NCBI RefSeq assembly: GCF_038622445.1
Contig: NZ_CP152019.1
Span: forward strand, 3,756,501-3,820,500
Direction: 5' to 3'
DNA: 64,000 bases
DNA from: Sporosarcina sp. FSL K6-1522
Lineage (GTDB): Bacteria > Bacillota > Bacilli > Bacillales_A > Planococcaceae
Made by a program: the position numbers and the translations under genes. Below the pieces are notes generated by a model. It was not told where the DNA came from. It saw only the letters and a list, made by a program, of their open reading frames with translations, and ran no database searches. Shown in pieces: positions 57,884-64,000 of this stretch. How positions within the stretch are numbered: position 1 is the stretch's first letter; each line of letters starts with the position of its first letter.

Positions 57884-58600
57884 TTAGCCTTCATCTCGTA
57901 TCGCGGTTAACTGAATTTCCTTAGACTGTTCTGTCGTCACAACAATATTGTCACGAGTCAAACCGTCTATCACACCGCCCTTTAAATTTAATGCGGAAGA
58001 TAGTACCTCCATATCGCCAATTGCCTCAATGACGAAAGGTGCGGGAAACGTTCTCCCATCTACTGTAATCACAGGGCCTGTACATTTGATATAGGAACTC
58101 GATGTAATTCTCTGCCCGTTAATCGCCAATCCTTGTGCACCCGAAATACGCAACTCATTCACCACACGAAGCACATGACTTTCATGAACAATATAATCAT
58201 TAGGATTCTGTTCAACAGGATCATAGTCAGCATCCTGTAACGTAATGCGAACTCCTTGTCCTACGGCTGGAATGATACCTAACAGCAAGCGAAGGTCTTC
58301 AGCCTCTTCAACGAGGACTTCATGATTCTTTTCTCTCGTAGAGAAAGAACGTTCAAATTCACGTATTTCCTCTTGCTTGGCAAGCAATTCATCCGATAAT
58401 TCCTTGTTGCGCTCTTGCTGAGCGATCAAATCTTCTCGATATTGTTCTTCTTGAAGAAAGGCTTCAGATTGATGATTTTCGTTGTCATCATGCATACCGA
58501 GCGTTCGATACGAAAAAGCGAGGATGAAGCCAAGTACCAGAAAGACTACCGAAAATAAGATGTGCCTCCCCCGCTTCTTGTATTCCTCATTCTTCCTCAT
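57884..58600 (-). CDS. ylxW: DUF881 family protein YlxW
   Basis: Paralogue of the next gene: short basic N-terminus, one membrane helix (ILFSVVFLVLGFILAFSY), a coiled coil of about 70 residues rich in Glu/Gln, then DUF881 (GVRITLQDADYDPVE, LVNELRISGAQGLAINGQRI-type block). Start chosen at ATG 58600 (MRKNEEYKKRGRH); starts up to five codons earlier overlap divIB further and cannot be excluded. About 238 residues. Confidence 0.87.
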   Translation of the reverse strand: MRKNEEYKKRGRHILFSVVFLVLGFILAFSYRTLGMHDDNENHQSEAFLQEEQYREDLIAQQERNKELSDELLAKQEEIREFERSFSTREKNHEVLVEEAEDLRLLLGIIPAVGQGVRITLQDADYDPVEQNPNDYIVHESHVLRVVNELRISGAQGLAINGQRITSSSYIKCTGPVITVDGRTFPAPFVIEAIGDMEVLSSALNLKGGVIDGLTRDNIVVTTEQSKEIQLTAIRDEG

Positions 58601-59369
58601 CAACCGGATCACCATCCTCTTTTATCAACCCGTATACTTTACTAAATGGCGTGAAATATGTACCTACTTCCACATCAATGACACCTTTTTCTAAGCCATT
58701 CAATTGGGCAGTAATCTCTGGATAATACATCATCTTGTCGGCAAATGTTGAAATCACGGCACGAACCTCAAAGCCATCATCCATATAGACCCGCAGGCTA
58801 TCGATATCATCCTTCGTCCCTTCGAAAGTGATTTCCGATATCAGATGATACACATCTTCATCCAACTTCATCAATTGTTTGGTCATTCGCTTGCGAATGG
58901 CCTCGTCTTTAAAGCCATTCAGAATAGGTGCTTTCGCTAATAACGATTCGGTTGCAAAAAGCTCACCATTTTCCAGCAGTAAACTATATTGCCCTTTTTC
59001 TTCGATATATGCGACTGTATCCCATTCAGAAATGTGGATGTCCACATCTCGAAGCCATTTTCGTTTGACCGTCACCTGCTCTACACCAGCCAGCGCACCA
59101 AGACTCTTTTCAATCTCATCAATGCTGAATCCCCAAAGTGCATCTCCGACTGCAAGACCGCTTTGCTCTTCGTAAAATGGTGACTCATGGAGCACCGTTT
59201 CATTAATCGTTAGTTTTCCTACTTCACTAAGCGCCGATTGAAAATAGAGCGTAACGAGGAGCGCTAGTACAAATACAAATAGCACAAACGAAAATTTCTT
59301 ATTCGTCCTTCTGCGGCGCTTCTTTCGCATAGATGGGATGCGCTCTTCAATATCTATTACTTTTTCCAT
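58587..59369 (-). CDS. divIB: cell division protein DivIB/FtsQ
   Basis: Bitopic division protein of the DivIB-DivIC-FtsL complex. Basic cytoplasmic N-terminus (MRKKRRRRTNKK), one membrane helix (FVLFVFVLALLVTLYF), POTRA domain (GKLTINETVLHESPFYEE, then VTVKRKWLRDVDIHISE) and beta domain. 260 residues. ATG has GGAGGAG upstream. Confidence 0.94.
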   Translation of the reverse strand: MEKVIDIEERIPSMRKKRRRRTNKKFSFVLFVFVLALLVTLYFQSALSEVGKLTINETVLHESPFYEEQSGLAVGDALWGFSIDEIEKSLGALAGVEQVTVKRKWLRDVDIHISEWDTVAYIEEKGQYSLLLENGELFATESLLAKAPILNGFKDEAIRKRMTKQLMKLDEDVYHLISEITFEGTKDDIDSLRVYMDDGFEVRAVISTFADKMMYYPEITAQLNGLEKGVIDVEVGTYFTPFSKVYGLIKEDGDPVDEEE

Positions 59370-59390
59370 TTCCGCTCCTCCTTCTCCCCC

Positions 59391-60476
59391 CTATTTCCTA
59401 CCTGACGCAAAATGGAGTATCGTGCCAGCTGCTATCCAAGTCGTCATCAATGACGAGCCCCCATAACTGATAAACGGCAACGTCACCCCTGTTACAGGCA
59501 ATAGCCCCGACACAACCCCAACATTCAAAAACGTTTGAAAAATAATCATCGAGCCCATCCCCGCTACCATCAATAAGGCATAGCGCCCCGGTGTTCGAAT
59601 TGCAATCCCGAATGCGGATATTAATAGCACCGCAAACAGTAGCAAAACGATTGTCGCACCGATGAAGCCTGACTCTTCTGCAATAATTGAAAAAATGAAA
59701 TCATTTTGTGGCTCAGGTAAATACAAATATTTTTGGCGACTGTTCCCATAACCATGGCCAACCAAACCACCAGGCGCAATGGCAAAAAGCGACTGAATCC
59801 CTTGGAAACCCGTACCTTGAGGATCACTCCATGGATCAATATAGGATTTTATCCGATCCAACCGATACGGCGCCGCAGCAATAAGTGCGATAAAAGCACC
59901 AATGCCCCCCACACCGAGAAAAGTGAAAAATTTTAACGGATAACCCGCGATGAACAAAATCACAAAAGCGGACACGATCATAATGACTGCTGAGCCTAAA
60001 TCTGGCTGTAGCATAATCAGCGTTGCCGGAAGTAAAATCAATCCAAAATGACTGAACCGAAATATTTTCTTGCCACTCGTATCATTCAAACTACATGCCA
60101 GTTTTCCGATAAGTGCAACTTTGACAAACTCGGCTGGTTGAAGACTAAACGGACCTAGTGCAATCCAACTTTGTGAACCATTGCGGACAGCACCAACACC
60201 TGGAATAAGGACAGCAACAAGTAACAGTACCGCCAAAATATAACAATAGGTCCATGTCTTTGGGTTAGATGTCAATGGGCTTTTCATAATAACAAGCGCT
60301 ATCCCGATAGATACGGTCATGTAAATTCCCTGTTTGACAATGAATGGTGAGGAATCTGCATAATGAACCAATCCCCAATACGAACCTGCCGAATGGACAA
60401 AAGCCAATCCTATCAATGACAGCGCCACGGCCGAAACGATAAATGACGTTTTTAACTTCCCTTCCAGTGAACGCAT
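59391..60476 (-). CDS. spoVE: SEDS glycosyltransferase SpoVE/FtsW type
   Basis: Peptidoglycan polymerase of the SEDS family; by position it corresponds to SpoVE, which makes spore cortex with SpoVD. Ten or so hydrophobic helices, with LIPGVGAVRNGSQSWIALG, LQPAEFVKVALIG, YGNSRQKYLYLPEPQNDFIF and PVTGVTLPFISYGGSS. 361 residues. Whether it serves sporulation only or division too cannot be decided here. The start has a closely spaced GGAAGG. Confidence 0.92.
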   Translation of the reverse strand: MRSLEGKLKTSFIVSAVALSLIGLAFVHSAGSYWGLVHYADSSPFIVKQGIYMTVSIGIALVIMKSPLTSNPKTWTYCYILAVLLLVAVLIPGVGAVRNGSQSWIALGPFSLQPAEFVKVALIGKLACSLNDTSGKKIFRFSHFGLILLPATLIMLQPDLGSAVIMIVSAFVILFIAGYPLKFFTFLGVGGIGAFIALIAAAPYRLDRIKSYIDPWSDPQGTGFQGIQSLFAIAPGGLVGHGYGNSRQKYLYLPEPQNDFIFSIIAEESGFIGATIVLLLFAVLLISAFGIAIRTPGRYALLMVAGMGSMIIFQTFLNVGVVSGLLPVTGVTLPFISYGGSSLMTTWIAAGTILHFASGRK

Positions 60477-60494
60477 CCTTCCACAAAGTTATAA

Positions 60495-60616
60495 AGAAAA
60501 GCGCAAGCGCCTTGGAAGGGGTGACAGGCGTTGGAGGGCTTGAAGATAAAGGCGCTTTTTGCCTTTATCAGCAAGACCGAAACGACCCAAGCCCCTAGGC
60601 GCTGGAGCCTAGACAA
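60495..60616. repeat. family A repeat, short form
   Basis: First of two head-to-tail copies between murD and spoVE. Opens GAAAAGCGCAAGCGCC, carries a 9-bp stem GATAAAGGC / GCCTTTATC (60545-60569) and closes TAGGCGCTGGAGCCTAGACA. Confidence 0.75.
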
Positions 60617-60619
60617 TAA

Positions 60620-60737
60620 GAAAAGCGCAAGGCACTCGCTTAGATGCGACCGGCATAAGACGAGTCGACGGCGTGGCGCTCTTTGCCACAGAGTCGGCTT
60701 GGCTTATGCCCCGAGCATCTGGCGCCTGGAGCTGGAC
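60620..60737. repeat. family A repeat, long-stem form
   Basis: Second copy, directly after the first. GAAAAGCGCAAGGC, GGCATAAG / CTTATGCC outer arms, GGCGTGGCGCTCTTTGCCAC core and closing GGCGCCTGGAGCTGGACAG. Together the two copies fill most of the 309-base gap between murD and spoVE; nothing else was recognised there. Confidence 0.75.
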
Positions 60738-60785
60738 AGATTTCCAAGTCGAAAAACGTATTCTCTCTTATCCGTTAAGCAATCC

Positions 60786-62141
60786 TTAGCGATCCAATTG
60801 CATAACAGCCTCTATGAACTGATCTCCCCGTATTTCAAAGCTAGGATATTGATCCCAACTAGCACAAGCTGGGGAGAGCAGAACAATATCCTCTTCCGCA
60901 GTAAACGCGTATGCTAGGTTGACCGCATTCTTCATATCCCCAGCATGAACGATTTTATCTATCCCACATGAAGCGGCAAATTGACCAAACTTCTCCGCCG
61001 TTTCTCCGAGTGTCACGACCGCTTTCACGTTGCCCATAAACGGTTGTAACTCGTCAAACGAATGCCCACGATCCAAACCACCTGCTATTAAAATGGTCGG
61101 TACATCAAACGCGGCGAGTGCACTCTTCGTAGCCAGTGTGTTTGTTGCCTTTGAATCATTAAAAAACTTTCGACCTTTTAACTCTGTGACAAATTGCATC
61201 CGATGGCGAACACCCGTAAAGGAACTGAGGACGTTTTCAATTGCCGACTTATCGCAACCCGAAAGAATGGCTGCTGCCGTTGCTGCAAGGATATTTTCTA
61301 AGTTATGCATGCCAGGTAGCTTGATAATCGAGCGATCTACATAAGGTTCTCCATTCCAATAGATTTTCTCCGCATCTGCAGATATCCCTTGATCTTTTTT
61401 CCCAAGTAGTGAAAAGGGGATTTTTTGAGCAACTGCATGCGCTACATAAGCCTGTAGCTCTGGTTGGTCCGCATTGTAAATGACATACTCATTCTGGGTC
61501 TGATTTTTCAAGACATTGGCCTTCGCTAACGCATACGCTTCTGACGTTCCATGATAGTCTAAGTGCGCATCATATAAATTCGTCCATACAGCGATTTTCG
61601 GACAAAATTTCTCCGTTCCCATCAACTGAAAAGAAGATGCCTCTAGTACAATAATATTGTCCTCTGTCGCTTTCTCAGCCACCGCACAAGAAACGGTTCC
61701 AATATTCCCCGCAATTAATGGCTGGCGCTGACCAATATTCAACATATGGTAAAGCAATGTCGTTGTTGTCGTCTTACCGTTCGAGCCTGTTATCGCGATG
61801 ATTGGTGCTTCACTTATCCGATACGTAAGTTCAATCTCCGTCCAGACCGGAATCGCTTTTGCGAGTGCTTCAACGAGGACTGCATTACTATAAGGTATGC
61901 CTGGATTCTTGACAATTAGGTCAAATCCTTCATCGAGAATCCCCTGTGGATGACCCCCACAAATGACACGAATTCCTTGCAATCGGAGCGCCGCTGCTTC
62001 CTCATTGCCTTCTTCGGGTGCTGCATCATTGACAACGACATTGGCTCCCGCATCATGTAAAATCTTTGATGCAGCGTAACCACTTCTAGCAAGCCCGAGG
62101 ACGAGAATACGCATTCCTTTAAACTGCTCTAGATTTTTCAT
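60786..62141 (-). CDS. murD: UDP-N-acetylmuramoyl-L-alanine:D-glutamate ligase
   Basis: Adds D-glutamate to UDP-MurNAc-L-Ala in the cytoplasm. N-terminal RILVLGLARSGYAASK, ATP loop ITGSNGKTTTTTLLY, middle-domain LEASSFQLMG and HLDYHG, and C-terminal FNDSKATN, then GGLDRG and LSPACASWDQY. 451 residues. Directly follows mraY, with no other gene between. Confidence 0.96.
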   Translation of the reverse strand: MKNLEQFKGMRILVLGLARSGYAASKILHDAGANVVVNDAAPEEGNEEAAALRLQGIRVICGGHPQGILDEGFDLIVKNPGIPYSNAVLVEALAKAIPVWTEIELTYRISEAPIIAITGSNGKTTTTTLLYHMLNIGQRQPLIAGNIGTVSCAVAEKATEDNIIVLEASSFQLMGTEKFCPKIAVWTNLYDAHLDYHGTSEAYALAKANVLKNQTQNEYVIYNADQPELQAYVAHAVAQKIPFSLLGKKDQGISADAEKIYWNGEPYVDRSIIKLPGMHNLENILAATAAAILSGCDKSAIENVLSSFTGVRHRMQFVTELKGRKFFNDSKATNTLATKSALAAFDVPTILIAGGLDRGHSFDELQPFMGNVKAVVTLGETAEKFGQFAASCGIDKIVHAGDMKNAVNLAYAFTAEEDIVLLSPACASWDQYPSFEIRGDQFIEAVMQLDR

Positions 62142-63113
62142 TTACAACACCTCCAACAAGACAGGGATGATCGCAGCAAAGAAGGCTACTCCCCAAAATA
62201 CAATTACAATTTTCCATTCAGACCAACCTGAAAGTTCAAAATGATGGTGGATTGGGCTCATTTTAAAGACCCGTTTACCTGTTAGCTTAAAGCTAATCAC
62301 CTGGATGATGACCGATAATGTCTCAATGACATAGACAATCCCAATCACTAATAACAGAAATTCTTGTTTAATCAAGACGGAGAGCATAGCGAGTGCCCCA
62401 CCGAGCGCCAATGACCCAGTATCGCCCATAAATACTTTTGCCGGTTTAACATTGAATAATAGGAAGCCTAGCATAGCCCCCGTCACGACAAATGCAAACA
62501 ATGCAATATCGAGCTGACCGTAGAACAAGGCATGCACACCAAATGCTGCAAAAGCAATCGATGATGTCCCAGCTACAAGTCCGTCCAAGCCATCCGATAA
62601 ATTGACCGCATTGGAAAATCCAACAAGCCAGAAAATCAAAAATGCCACATAAAAAATCCCGAGTTCGATTTTAAAATCTGTGAAAGGAATTTGAACTGCC
62701 GTATCAAACGGCCCTAATTTTAAGAGGAAAAATGCAGCAACTGCGACAATAATTTGCCCGATCAGTTTCTGGATAGACGTCAGCCCAAGATTTCTCTTCA
62801 CGACAACAATAATAAAGTCATCTAAGAAACCGATGATGCCGAAACCGACGAACACAAGCAATAATACGATTGTCTGTGTCGTCAACACATCGTATATGTA
62901 TGAAAGAACGAGCGTGGAAATAATAATCGAACCAATGAAGATTAGACCACCCATCGTTGGCGTACCAGCCTTTTGCTGATGGGTTTTCGGCCCTTCTTCC
63001 CGGATACTCTGCCCGAACTTCATTCTCCTCAGTGTTGGGATAATGACAACTCCCAGTATTGCCGAAATGCCAAATGCGACAGCAATCGCCGTCAATGTTG
63101 TAACCAGTGTCAT
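62142..63113 (-). CDS. mraY: phospho-N-acetylmuramoyl-pentapeptide transferase
   Basis: Polytopic membrane enzyme that makes lipid I from UDP-MurNAc-pentapeptide and undecaprenyl phosphate. Motifs EEGPKTHQQKAGTPTMGG, GFLDDFIIV, NAVNLSDGLDGL, FMGDTGSLALGG and MSPIHHHFE are all present. 323 residues, about ten membrane helices. The spoVD-type gene precedes it by about 70 bases. Confidence 0.96.
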   Translation of the reverse strand: MTLVTTLTAIAVAFGISAILGVVIIPTLRRMKFGQSIREEGPKTHQQKAGTPTMGGLIFIGSIIISTLVLSYIYDVLTTQTIVLLLVFVGFGIIGFLDDFIIVVVKRNLGLTSIQKLIGQIIVAVAAFFLLKLGPFDTAVQIPFTDFKIELGIFYVAFLIFWLVGFSNAVNLSDGLDGLVAGTSSIAFAAFGVHALFYGQLDIALFAFVVTGAMLGFLLFNVKPAKVFMGDTGSLALGGALAMLSVLIKQEFLLLVIGIVYVIETLSVIIQVISFKLTGKRVFKMSPIHHHFELSGWSEWKIVIVFWGVAFFAAIIPVLLEVL

Positions 63114-63183
63114 GATTTTTTCTCCTTCTACCTTCTAATGTGGCCTCTTTACTTACGCCACATTAGACGTTGCTTTTCAATAG

Positions 63184-64000
63184 TCATTCTGTATATAAAT
63201 GAATAACATCATCCATCGTAACGAGTGTATCGGCGGCTGGCAACTGATATTTTACTTTTTCACCAGAACCATGCCATTGAATACGATACGTATACAACTG
63301 CCTGCTAATCATTCCTTTTGTCATTCCTGTCAAATCGGGAACTCGATAGGTCAACGGATCTCCCCATCTATACTCTTTTTCGAGCTGTCCTTCTCTTTTT
63401 GTCACGCCTGCAAGTGGTGCAATCTCTTCCATGATTCGACCAACAATTGGCGCGGCAATAACGCCACCAAATTGAACCGAATTTTTCGGGCTATCAACGG
63501 CCACATAGACGAGTAACTCTGGATCATCCGCCGGTGCAAACCCAATGAACGACACGATATAATCGCCGTCCTTATAATTGCCGTCCACCACTTTCTGAGC
63601 GGTCCCTGTCTTGCCACCAACACGCAGCCCATCTGTAAAGGCATTGCGGCCTGAACCATTGGCAACAACCGATTCAAGCGCTTCACGCACTTGCTTGGAT
63701 GTTTCTTCGCTGATTACTCTTCTTTGCATTTCTGGAATGAACGATTGTAACGCCTTTCCTTTATCATCTGTTATTTCTTTGACAATATACGGTCGATACA
63801 AATAGCCTCCATTAATGGCTGCCGCCACGGCTTGCACTTGCTGAATAGGTGTAACCGAAATTCCTTGCCCAAATGCGGTTGTCGCCTGTTCAACAGGTCC
63901 AAATTTTTCTTTCGAAAAGAGAATCCCTTTTGATTCACCAGCAATACCCGATCCGGTTGATTGCCCAAAACCGAAATCACTTATGTATTGCAAAAGCTTA
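63184..64000 (-). CDS. spoVD: SpoVD-type penicillin-binding protein (5' part outside window)
   Basis: C-terminal 270 residues of a class B transpeptidase, open to the window end (the frame continues upstream as KLLQYISDFGFG). The KTG box GGKTGTAQKV is present; the SxxK serine and SxN motif lie outside. One PASTA-like domain ends the protein (RVPDLTGMTKGMISRQL). A single PASTA and its place before mraY favour SpoVD over PBP2B, which usually has two. Sporulation cortex synthesis with SpoVE is the likely role. Confidence 0.85.
   Translation of the reverse strand, partial: KLLQYISDFGFGQSTGSGIAGESKGILFSKEKFGPVEQATTAFGQGISVTPIQQVQAVAAAINGGYLYRPYIVKEITDDKGKALQSFIPEMQRRVISEETSKQVREALESVVANGSGRNAFTDGLRVGGKTGTAQKVVDGNYKDGDYIVSFIGFAPADDPELLVYVAVDSPKNSVQFGGVIAAPIVGRIMEEIAPLAGVTKREGQLEKEYRWGDPLTYRVPDLTGMTKGMISRQLYTYRIQWHGSGEKVKYQLPAADTLVTMDDVIHLYTE

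Follow-up and report, generated by a model that had tools for sequence, protein, structure and literature searches.

Spore-forming bacteria with a lysine-containing wall have been reported to build their spore cortex with diaminopimelate, and hence the wall chemistry must switch inside one cell. Bacillus sphaericus has a Lys vegetative wall and a diaminopimelate cortex, and Linnett and Tipper reportedly described in the 1970s two adding enzymes in this organism, one for L-lysine (L-Lys) and then, in sporulation, one for meso-diaminopimelate. In Bacillus subtilis, one MurE serves both wall and cortex, and the division and cell-wall (dcw) cluster has the order spoVD-murE-mraY-murD-spoVE-murG-murB-divIB, with murE in the spoVD/mraY gap and murG and murB in the spoVE/divIB gap. 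Here, we analyzed a stretch of 64,000 nucleotides (the window) from Sporosarcina sp. FSL K6-1522 (contig NZ_CP152019.1, positions 3,756,501 to 3,820,500). The remaining genes of its dcw cluster keep the B. subtilis order, but murE, murG and murB lie outside the cluster, and the genome encodes two MurE ligases rather than one. The altered gene order is true, family-wide and in itself unsurprising; the interest lies in the destination of murE, since the two genes found have complementary signatures and one is linked to sporulation. We give a probability of roughly 80% to the reading, drawn from sequence comparison, that the two enzymes differ in third-residue specificity by cell type, with MurE1 adding L-Lys for the vegetative wall, the wall type of this bacterial group, and MurE2 adding diaminopimelate for the cortex. 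This proposed division of labour is the same as in B. sphaericus; the work on that species measured activities, whereas the present analysis offers candidate genes, a locus, a putative promoter and a phylogenetic range. A diaminopimelate-adding cortex activity is known biochemically in B. sphaericus, and MurE2 can now be named as its candidate gene, which makes the switch in wall chemistry testable. The reference list of PMC10653849 includes a title on a B. sphaericus peptidase that hydrolyses meso-diaminopimelate bonds and is related to sporulation, and a term search of a sporulation genomics survey that covers spore cortex genes gave no occurrence of murE (PMC3533761). Our literature search found no paper assigning a cortex-specific murE, an absence that is weak given its partial coverage, with most subscription journals outside.

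MurE1 and MurE2 share 32% identity and both pass the UDP-MurNAc-tripeptide synthetase model TIGR01085 (470.7 and 407.1 bits, cut-off 257.3). According to passages of PMC3829189, the Asn and Arg of the DNPR motif bind the distal carboxylate of meso-diaminopimelate in the MurE of E. coli and M. tuberculosis, and the L-Lys MurE of S. aureus, with the motif DNPA, uses mainly the Asp plus a Glu elsewhere. The Thermotoga MurE has DDPR and is described in passages of PMC9434261 as adding Lys in vivo and accepting diaminopimelate in vitro. In the Sporosarcina sp. genome, MurE1 reads DDPR, the same motif as the Thermotoga Lys enzyme and different from the DNPA of S. aureus, and MurE2 reads DNPR. The MurE1 motif was DDPR in 43/43 fetched loci from 30 distinct genomes, i.e., the Asn is changed to Asp and the Arg is kept. 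Among 51 fetched MurE2 loci (48 genomes at most, three having been read twice), the motif was DNPR in 46, DNAR in three, DNSR in one and DNCR in one, and its Asn and Arg were present in all 51. Furthermore, 17/17 aligned MurE2 rows were invariant at the motif positions D, N and R and in TGTNGKT, GGxRDxxKR (x varies) and GKGHE. In a PDB search, the best match of MurE1 was the S. aureus L-Lys MurE 4c12 (437.7 bits), followed at 310.7 bits by the next entry, with E. coli 1e8c at 297.7; the closest characterised structure of MurE1 is therefore that of an L-Lys enzyme. For MurE2, the best match was the fusion protein 8f5d (259.4 bits), then enzymes named diaminopimelate ligases (2wtz, 233.7; 7b6o, 223.9), and 4c12 reached only 146.5. 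An earlier note on the window had tentatively explained the gene order by loss of the diaminopimelate-type murE from the cluster and use of an L-Lys ligase encoded elsewhere. Such an L-Lys-looking ligase indeed exists in MurE1, but a simple loss of the diaminopimelate function does not hold, as MurE2 has kept DNPR. The note had also named a diaminopimelate-type murE elsewhere, together with a diaminopimelate wall, as what would speak against its explanation; the former was found in MurE2, and the L-Lys wall is not refuted.

The distribution of MurE2 follows sporulation within the family. We surveyed 200 family genomes (genera are given as g numbers), using SpoIVA (PF09547) as sporulation marker and reading counts from tables. 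SpoIVA was found in 155 genomes, 151 outside genus g2 plus four of g2. MurE2 matches at E<=1e-70 were obtained in 151/151 SpoIVA-positive genomes outside g2 and in 0/45 SpoIVA-negative genomes, 25 of which were assigned by elimination from the full positive list. With g2 set apart, MurE2 is thus present in the spore formers of this family and absent from its non-spore-formers. In the SpoIVA-negative genera (g6, g7, g8, g9, g12 and g16), the best match to the MurE2 query was 1.3e-61 or weaker. MurE1, on the other hand, was found at E<=1e-90 in 176/200 genomes, sporulators and non-sporulators alike. Moreover, in a tree of mraY plus murD for 30 family genomes and three rows of the related family f38, four changes are required to account for the eight rows without SpoIVA, all of them forced by starred branches (genomes G008 and G012 sit on long branches). 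Sporulation has been lost independently at least four times in the family, and g2 would add a fifth, partial case.

The locus of murE2 is conserved as well. Of 20 fetched loci (9 kb each, one of 4.2 kb), 18 show both ylbF and a ylbC-like gene, and murE2 stands between the two in all 18; L078 and L080 show the ylbC-like gene only. An aspartokinase gene adjoins murE2 in 6/12 genera (g1, g3, g4, g5, g11 and g17). Upstream of murE2 in Sporosarcina sp. stands AC-N17-CATACGATA, comparable with the sigma-K consensus KCACM / GCATANNNTA given in passages of PMC3416734. We examined the 110 bases before the murE2 start in 13 representatives of 12 genera, with shuffles and control ORFs (open reading frames). 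The sigma-K-like -10 element CATANNNTA was present in 12/13 upstream regions versus 0.51 expected from shuffles, and AC-N16/17-CATANNNTA in 6/13 versus 0.041 expected. Upstream regions of control ORFs from the murE1 and murE2 loci had CATANNNTA in 9/249 cases and the full pattern in 0/249. On both strands of the window (128,000 positions), the full pattern did not occur and CATANNNTA alone occurred 21 times. A sigma-E promoter was also sought upstream of murE2, with one -10 match (L088) and zero full matches. The divergent region between murE2 and the aspartokinase gene also holds an inverted repeat, CATAC-N6-GTATG, which overlaps the murE2 -10 element.

The sequences directly show gene content, gene positions, motif residues, the presence of MurE2 together with a sporulation gene and its absence where that gene is missing, and the conserved upstream element. 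From these data we infer the substrates of the two enzymes, their timing and cell compartment, and the role of the aspartokinase. MurE1, encoded beside prfC, would add L-Lys and build the vegetative wall. MurE2, encoded in the ylb locus, would probably be expressed at a late stage in the mother cell, driven by a sigma-K-type promoter, and would add meso-diaminopimelate to the same UDP-MurNAc-dipeptide, after which machinery of the SpoVD/SpoVE type may polymerise the diaminopimelate cortex. The divergent aspartokinase, where present, lacks the ACT domain that usually serves regulation and might feed the aspartate branch leading to diaminopimelate and dipicolinate. We lean, with clearly less confidence, towards a broader reading in which the third stem-peptide residue is changed family-wide by developmental gene switching; MurE2 would be a mother-cell diaminopimelate module, accompanied in half of the genera by an adjacent unregulated aspartokinase and kept while the vegetative ligase was swapped (L-Lys-type MurE1 in most genera, a third MurE type lacking the motif in g2 and g4). 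If true, cortex chemistry would be under stronger constraint than that of the vegetative wall.

The MurE tree, of a quick kind with 99 rows and support only from the SH-aLRT (Shimodaira-Hasegawa-like approximate likelihood ratio test), places MurE2 in a single clade (support 94) with the copy of the g2 genome G020 adjacent on a long branch. MurE1 joins the DDPR/DNPA L-Lys-like enzymes of families f38, f9 and f16 (support 99), with the f38 copies among the MurE1 rows, and this group sits next to the cluster-encoded diaminopimelate MurEs of Bacilli. In f16, DDPR was present in 5/5 fetched loci. In f9, presumably staphylococcus-like to judge from size and the motif DNPA, prfC stands beside murE in 10/10 fetched loci; in MurE1 loci of the Sporosarcina sp. 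family, prfC lies within the same fetched locus in 19/20, and murE of S. aureus also lies beside prfC. Sporosarcina sp. differs from S. aureus in its sporulation genes and its additional MurE. Family f38, which we take to be Jeotgalibacillus-like, resembles the Sporosarcina sp. family in having SpoIVA (12/12 genomes) and a DDPR MurE1-like gene, here beside the M42 peptidase gene (12/12), plus a DNPR MurE. However, the DNPR gene has kept its cluster position between spoVD and mraY (12/12), and its product groups with the Bacilli cluster enzymes, not with MurE2. Because f38 keeps both ligases side by side, an L-Lys-type ligase does not by itself require murE to leave the cluster. The simplest course of events would begin with an L-Lys ligase that took its place by prfC, while the cluster murE at first continued to serve the cortex, as in f38; in the Sporosarcina sp. 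family, this cluster copy would later have been replaced by MurE2. The cluster may have been free to lose murE once two genes elsewhere performed both of its functions. The tree gave no support to the idea that MurE2 is itself the relocated cluster murE of Bacilli, although this branch is a weak one.

Several observations weigh against the two-ligase reading, some of which other explanations would accommodate. MurE1 stays under the cut-off of the L-Lys model NF010628 (394.1 versus 536) and, like MurE2, passes the diaminopimelate model NF001126 (518.5 and 404.3, cut-off 373), so that NF001126 does not discriminate between both ligases and NCBIfam naming would make both of them diaminopimelate enzymes; the L-Lys assignment therefore rests on the motif, the relationship to the S. 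aureus enzyme and the wall type of the group. Because MurE1 keeps the carboxylate-binding Arg and the DDPR enzyme of Thermotoga takes diaminopimelate, MurE1 might accept both residues. One relaxed ligase could then make both precursors, with lysine and diaminopimelate levels deciding and MurE2 as a redundant or specialised extra; a level-set choice has been proposed for Thermotoga, and lysine incorporation by the S. aureus MurE has been ascribed to high cytoplasmic lysine (PMC3829189). Nevertheless, we regard this explanation as unlikely, since it leaves unexplained both the occurrence of MurE2 (151/151 versus 0/45) and the conserved element upstream of its gene.

Other points concern MurE2 itself. 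The 1e-70 threshold was chosen once the gap was known (the interval from 3.2e-74 to 1.3e-61 holds no best match). Among 200 genomes sampled across the class, matches to the MurE2 query at E<=1e-75 were found in 13, ten of the family and three others (5.2e-81, 2.0e-77 and 2.2e-76; 39-42% identity), one of the three being a DNPR enzyme adjoining a spoVD-like gene; as these are as strong as weaker family members, score alone does not define MurE2. In the tree, MurE2 falls outside the Bacilli cluster diaminopimelate MurEs and joins, with weak support (85), proteobacterial MurE and one Pseudogracilibacillus metagenome-assembled genome, and in g13, g18 and g19 its motif has another residue in place of Pro. 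Both features would suit a sporulation enzyme that joins a different amino acid or substrate, for instance for a peptide of the spore coat or germ wall, an explanation that we find hard to favor in view of the invariant motif Asn and Arg and invariant further motifs of MurE2 and the aspartokinase gene beside murE2 in half of the genera. That gene is, however, missing beside murE2 in the other six (g10, g13, g14, g15, g18 and g19). As to the promoter, only 6/13 upstream regions have a fitting -35 AC element, g11 has no CATANNNTA and reads CATACGATG, and the CATANNNTA match of g3 lies away from the site that g1 and g4 have in common, where g3 has CATACGATG. The co-occurrence with SpoIVA might also be a side effect of linkage or of genome size, with the murE2 locus degrading together with dispensable genes and having no cortex role; a shared loss is conceivable, as the neighbouring ylb region has sporulation genes such as ylbJ. 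This is the least probable of the explanations considered, given at least four independent sporulation losses, MurE2 in every SpoIVA-positive genome outside g2, and a -10-like element found in both upstream contexts, whether or not the aspartokinase is there. The two-ligase model remains a gene-based prediction.

Genera g2 and g4 depart from the family pattern. The 24 genomes without MurE1 comprise the four of g2, 16 listed for g4 and, by elimination, three more of g4 and the fragmented g10 genome G184; the g4 genomes have SpoIVA and lack MurE1 at E<=1e-90. The SpoIVA matches of the four g2 genomes were 1.9e-12, 4.9e-87, 2.0e-56 and 1.1e-40, and none had MurE2 at E<=1e-70. G020, with the strong SpoIVA match (4.9e-87), is the sole g2 genome with a diverged MurE2 (436 amino acids, DNPR) in the same ylb locus, where a 223-amino-acid aspartokinase relative lacks the two kinase motifs searched for. 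In the g2 genomes G001 and G038 (loci L165 and L167), the spoVE match was shortened, as was the spoVD match in G038; together with their weak SpoIVA matches, this indicates that sporulation is apparently being lost there. A third MurE type was present in the four g2 and six g4 genomes examined. Its seven sequences that were read (L118, L119 and L137 of g2; L120-L123 of g4) have ITATNGKTS and neither DNPR nor DDPR, and two of them passed TIGR01085 (295.1 and 279.9) and failed both NF001126 and NF010628. This type is a candidate vegetative ligase, perhaps for L-ornithine, an idea that comes from the chemotaxonomy of presumed relatives.

In the dcw cluster itself, the earlier note had read short spoVD-mraY and spoVE-divIB junctions and the lack of the three genes, and the window ORFs with recomputed gaps agree (Table 1); ORF reading found zero murE, murG or murB between spoVD and divIB. 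Window genes were named from known gene order and sequence appearance, murD alone by NCBIfam. The minus strand of the window carries spoVD, mraY, murD, spoVE, divIB, two DUF881 genes, an sbp-like gene, ftsA and ftsZ and, further on, spoIIGA, sigE and sigG; beyond the window, upstream of spoVD, the cluster has genes for a penicillin-binding protein (PBP), ftsL, rsmH and mraZ. The genes that the note had expected elsewhere were located in the full genome, two for MurE, one murG and one murB. Since the genome is a single contig (4,393,196 bases, 100% complete) and copies were found elsewhere, the missing genes are not a sequencing gap. We also compared the cluster in 30 genomes from 19 genera, sampled from the 200, examining 1.5 kb to the left and to the right of murD. 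From the mraY side to divIB, 30/30 had no murE, murG or murB, and the gene order is therefore a family trait and not strain-specific. Within the stretch examined, spoVD and spoVE were in the cluster of 22/22 genomes from sporulating genera and g2. A spoVD match stood directly before mraY in these 22 and in 0/8 genomes of SpoIVA-negative genera, whose order was mraY-murD-divIB in 8/8, with spoVE absent between murD and divIB.

Table 1 Features of the dcw cluster in the window and of related genes elsewhere in the Sporosarcina sp. genome.
Feature	Position	Strand	Remarks
divIB	window 58587..59369	-	window ORF
spoVE/divIB junction	window 59370..59390		21 bases; ORF ends recomputed
spoVE	window 59391..60476	-	SEDS protein
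murD	window 60786..62141	-	TIGR01087 416.3 bits, cut-off 211.95
mraY	window 62142..63113	-	window ORF
spoVD/mraY junction	window 63114..63183		70 bases; ORF ends recomputed
spoVD (3' part)	window 63184..64000	-	truncated by window edge; sporulation-specific class B PBP
spoVD (entire)	genome 3819684-3821636		ORF of 650 amino acids
MurE1 gene	genome 3969456-3970991	-	between prfC and M42 peptidase gene
MurE2 gene	genome 3843241-3844680	-	adjoins ylbF; divergent from aspartokinase
Element upstream of murE2	genome 3844740-3844767		
Inverted repeat upstream of murE2	genome 3844733-3844748		
ACT-less aspartokinase gene	genome 3844791-3845525	+	244 amino acids; matches positions 3-245 of 405 of best aspartokinase model
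murG	genome 2911980-2912399		domain match; single copy; no further mur gene in 3.4 kb around
murB	genome 1142794-1143090		domain match; single copy; apart from other mur genes
ATP-grasp-like protein cluster	genome 2819140-2829700		holds three MurF-like Mur ligases
Three Mur-ligase-like genes	genome 2821050-2829700		732, 458 and 462 amino acids

MurG passed NF009102 (433.8, cut-off 339) and was slightly under the cut-off of TIGR01133 (236.2 versus 250.25), and MurB scored 365 bits against NF010480 (cut-off 259). A Mur ligase domain search of the genome returned nine places: two MurE, MurF and MurD by NCBIfam, MurC and FolC recognised solely from the look of their sequences, and three MurF-like genes. 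The latter were considered as extra MurE and rejected, MurF being their best match, at scores (252.7, 255.3 and 248.1) all under the cut-off of 288.6. The longest of the three products has an additional N-terminal part with a weak match to ATP-grasp models, and the surrounding cluster may encode a pathway for the spore coat or for a peptide polymer. Further MurE-like sequences occur in the family and in f38. One clade (L124-L130 and L132), found in g2, g4, g7 and g12, has DDLN in place of DNPR, and another (L134-L136 and L312-L317), found in g7, g12 and f38, has DHPG. Finally, the g7 genome G183 carries an extra MurE1-related gene (L131:3256-4716) with NNPG at the motif columns, which groups with the MurE1 of f38.

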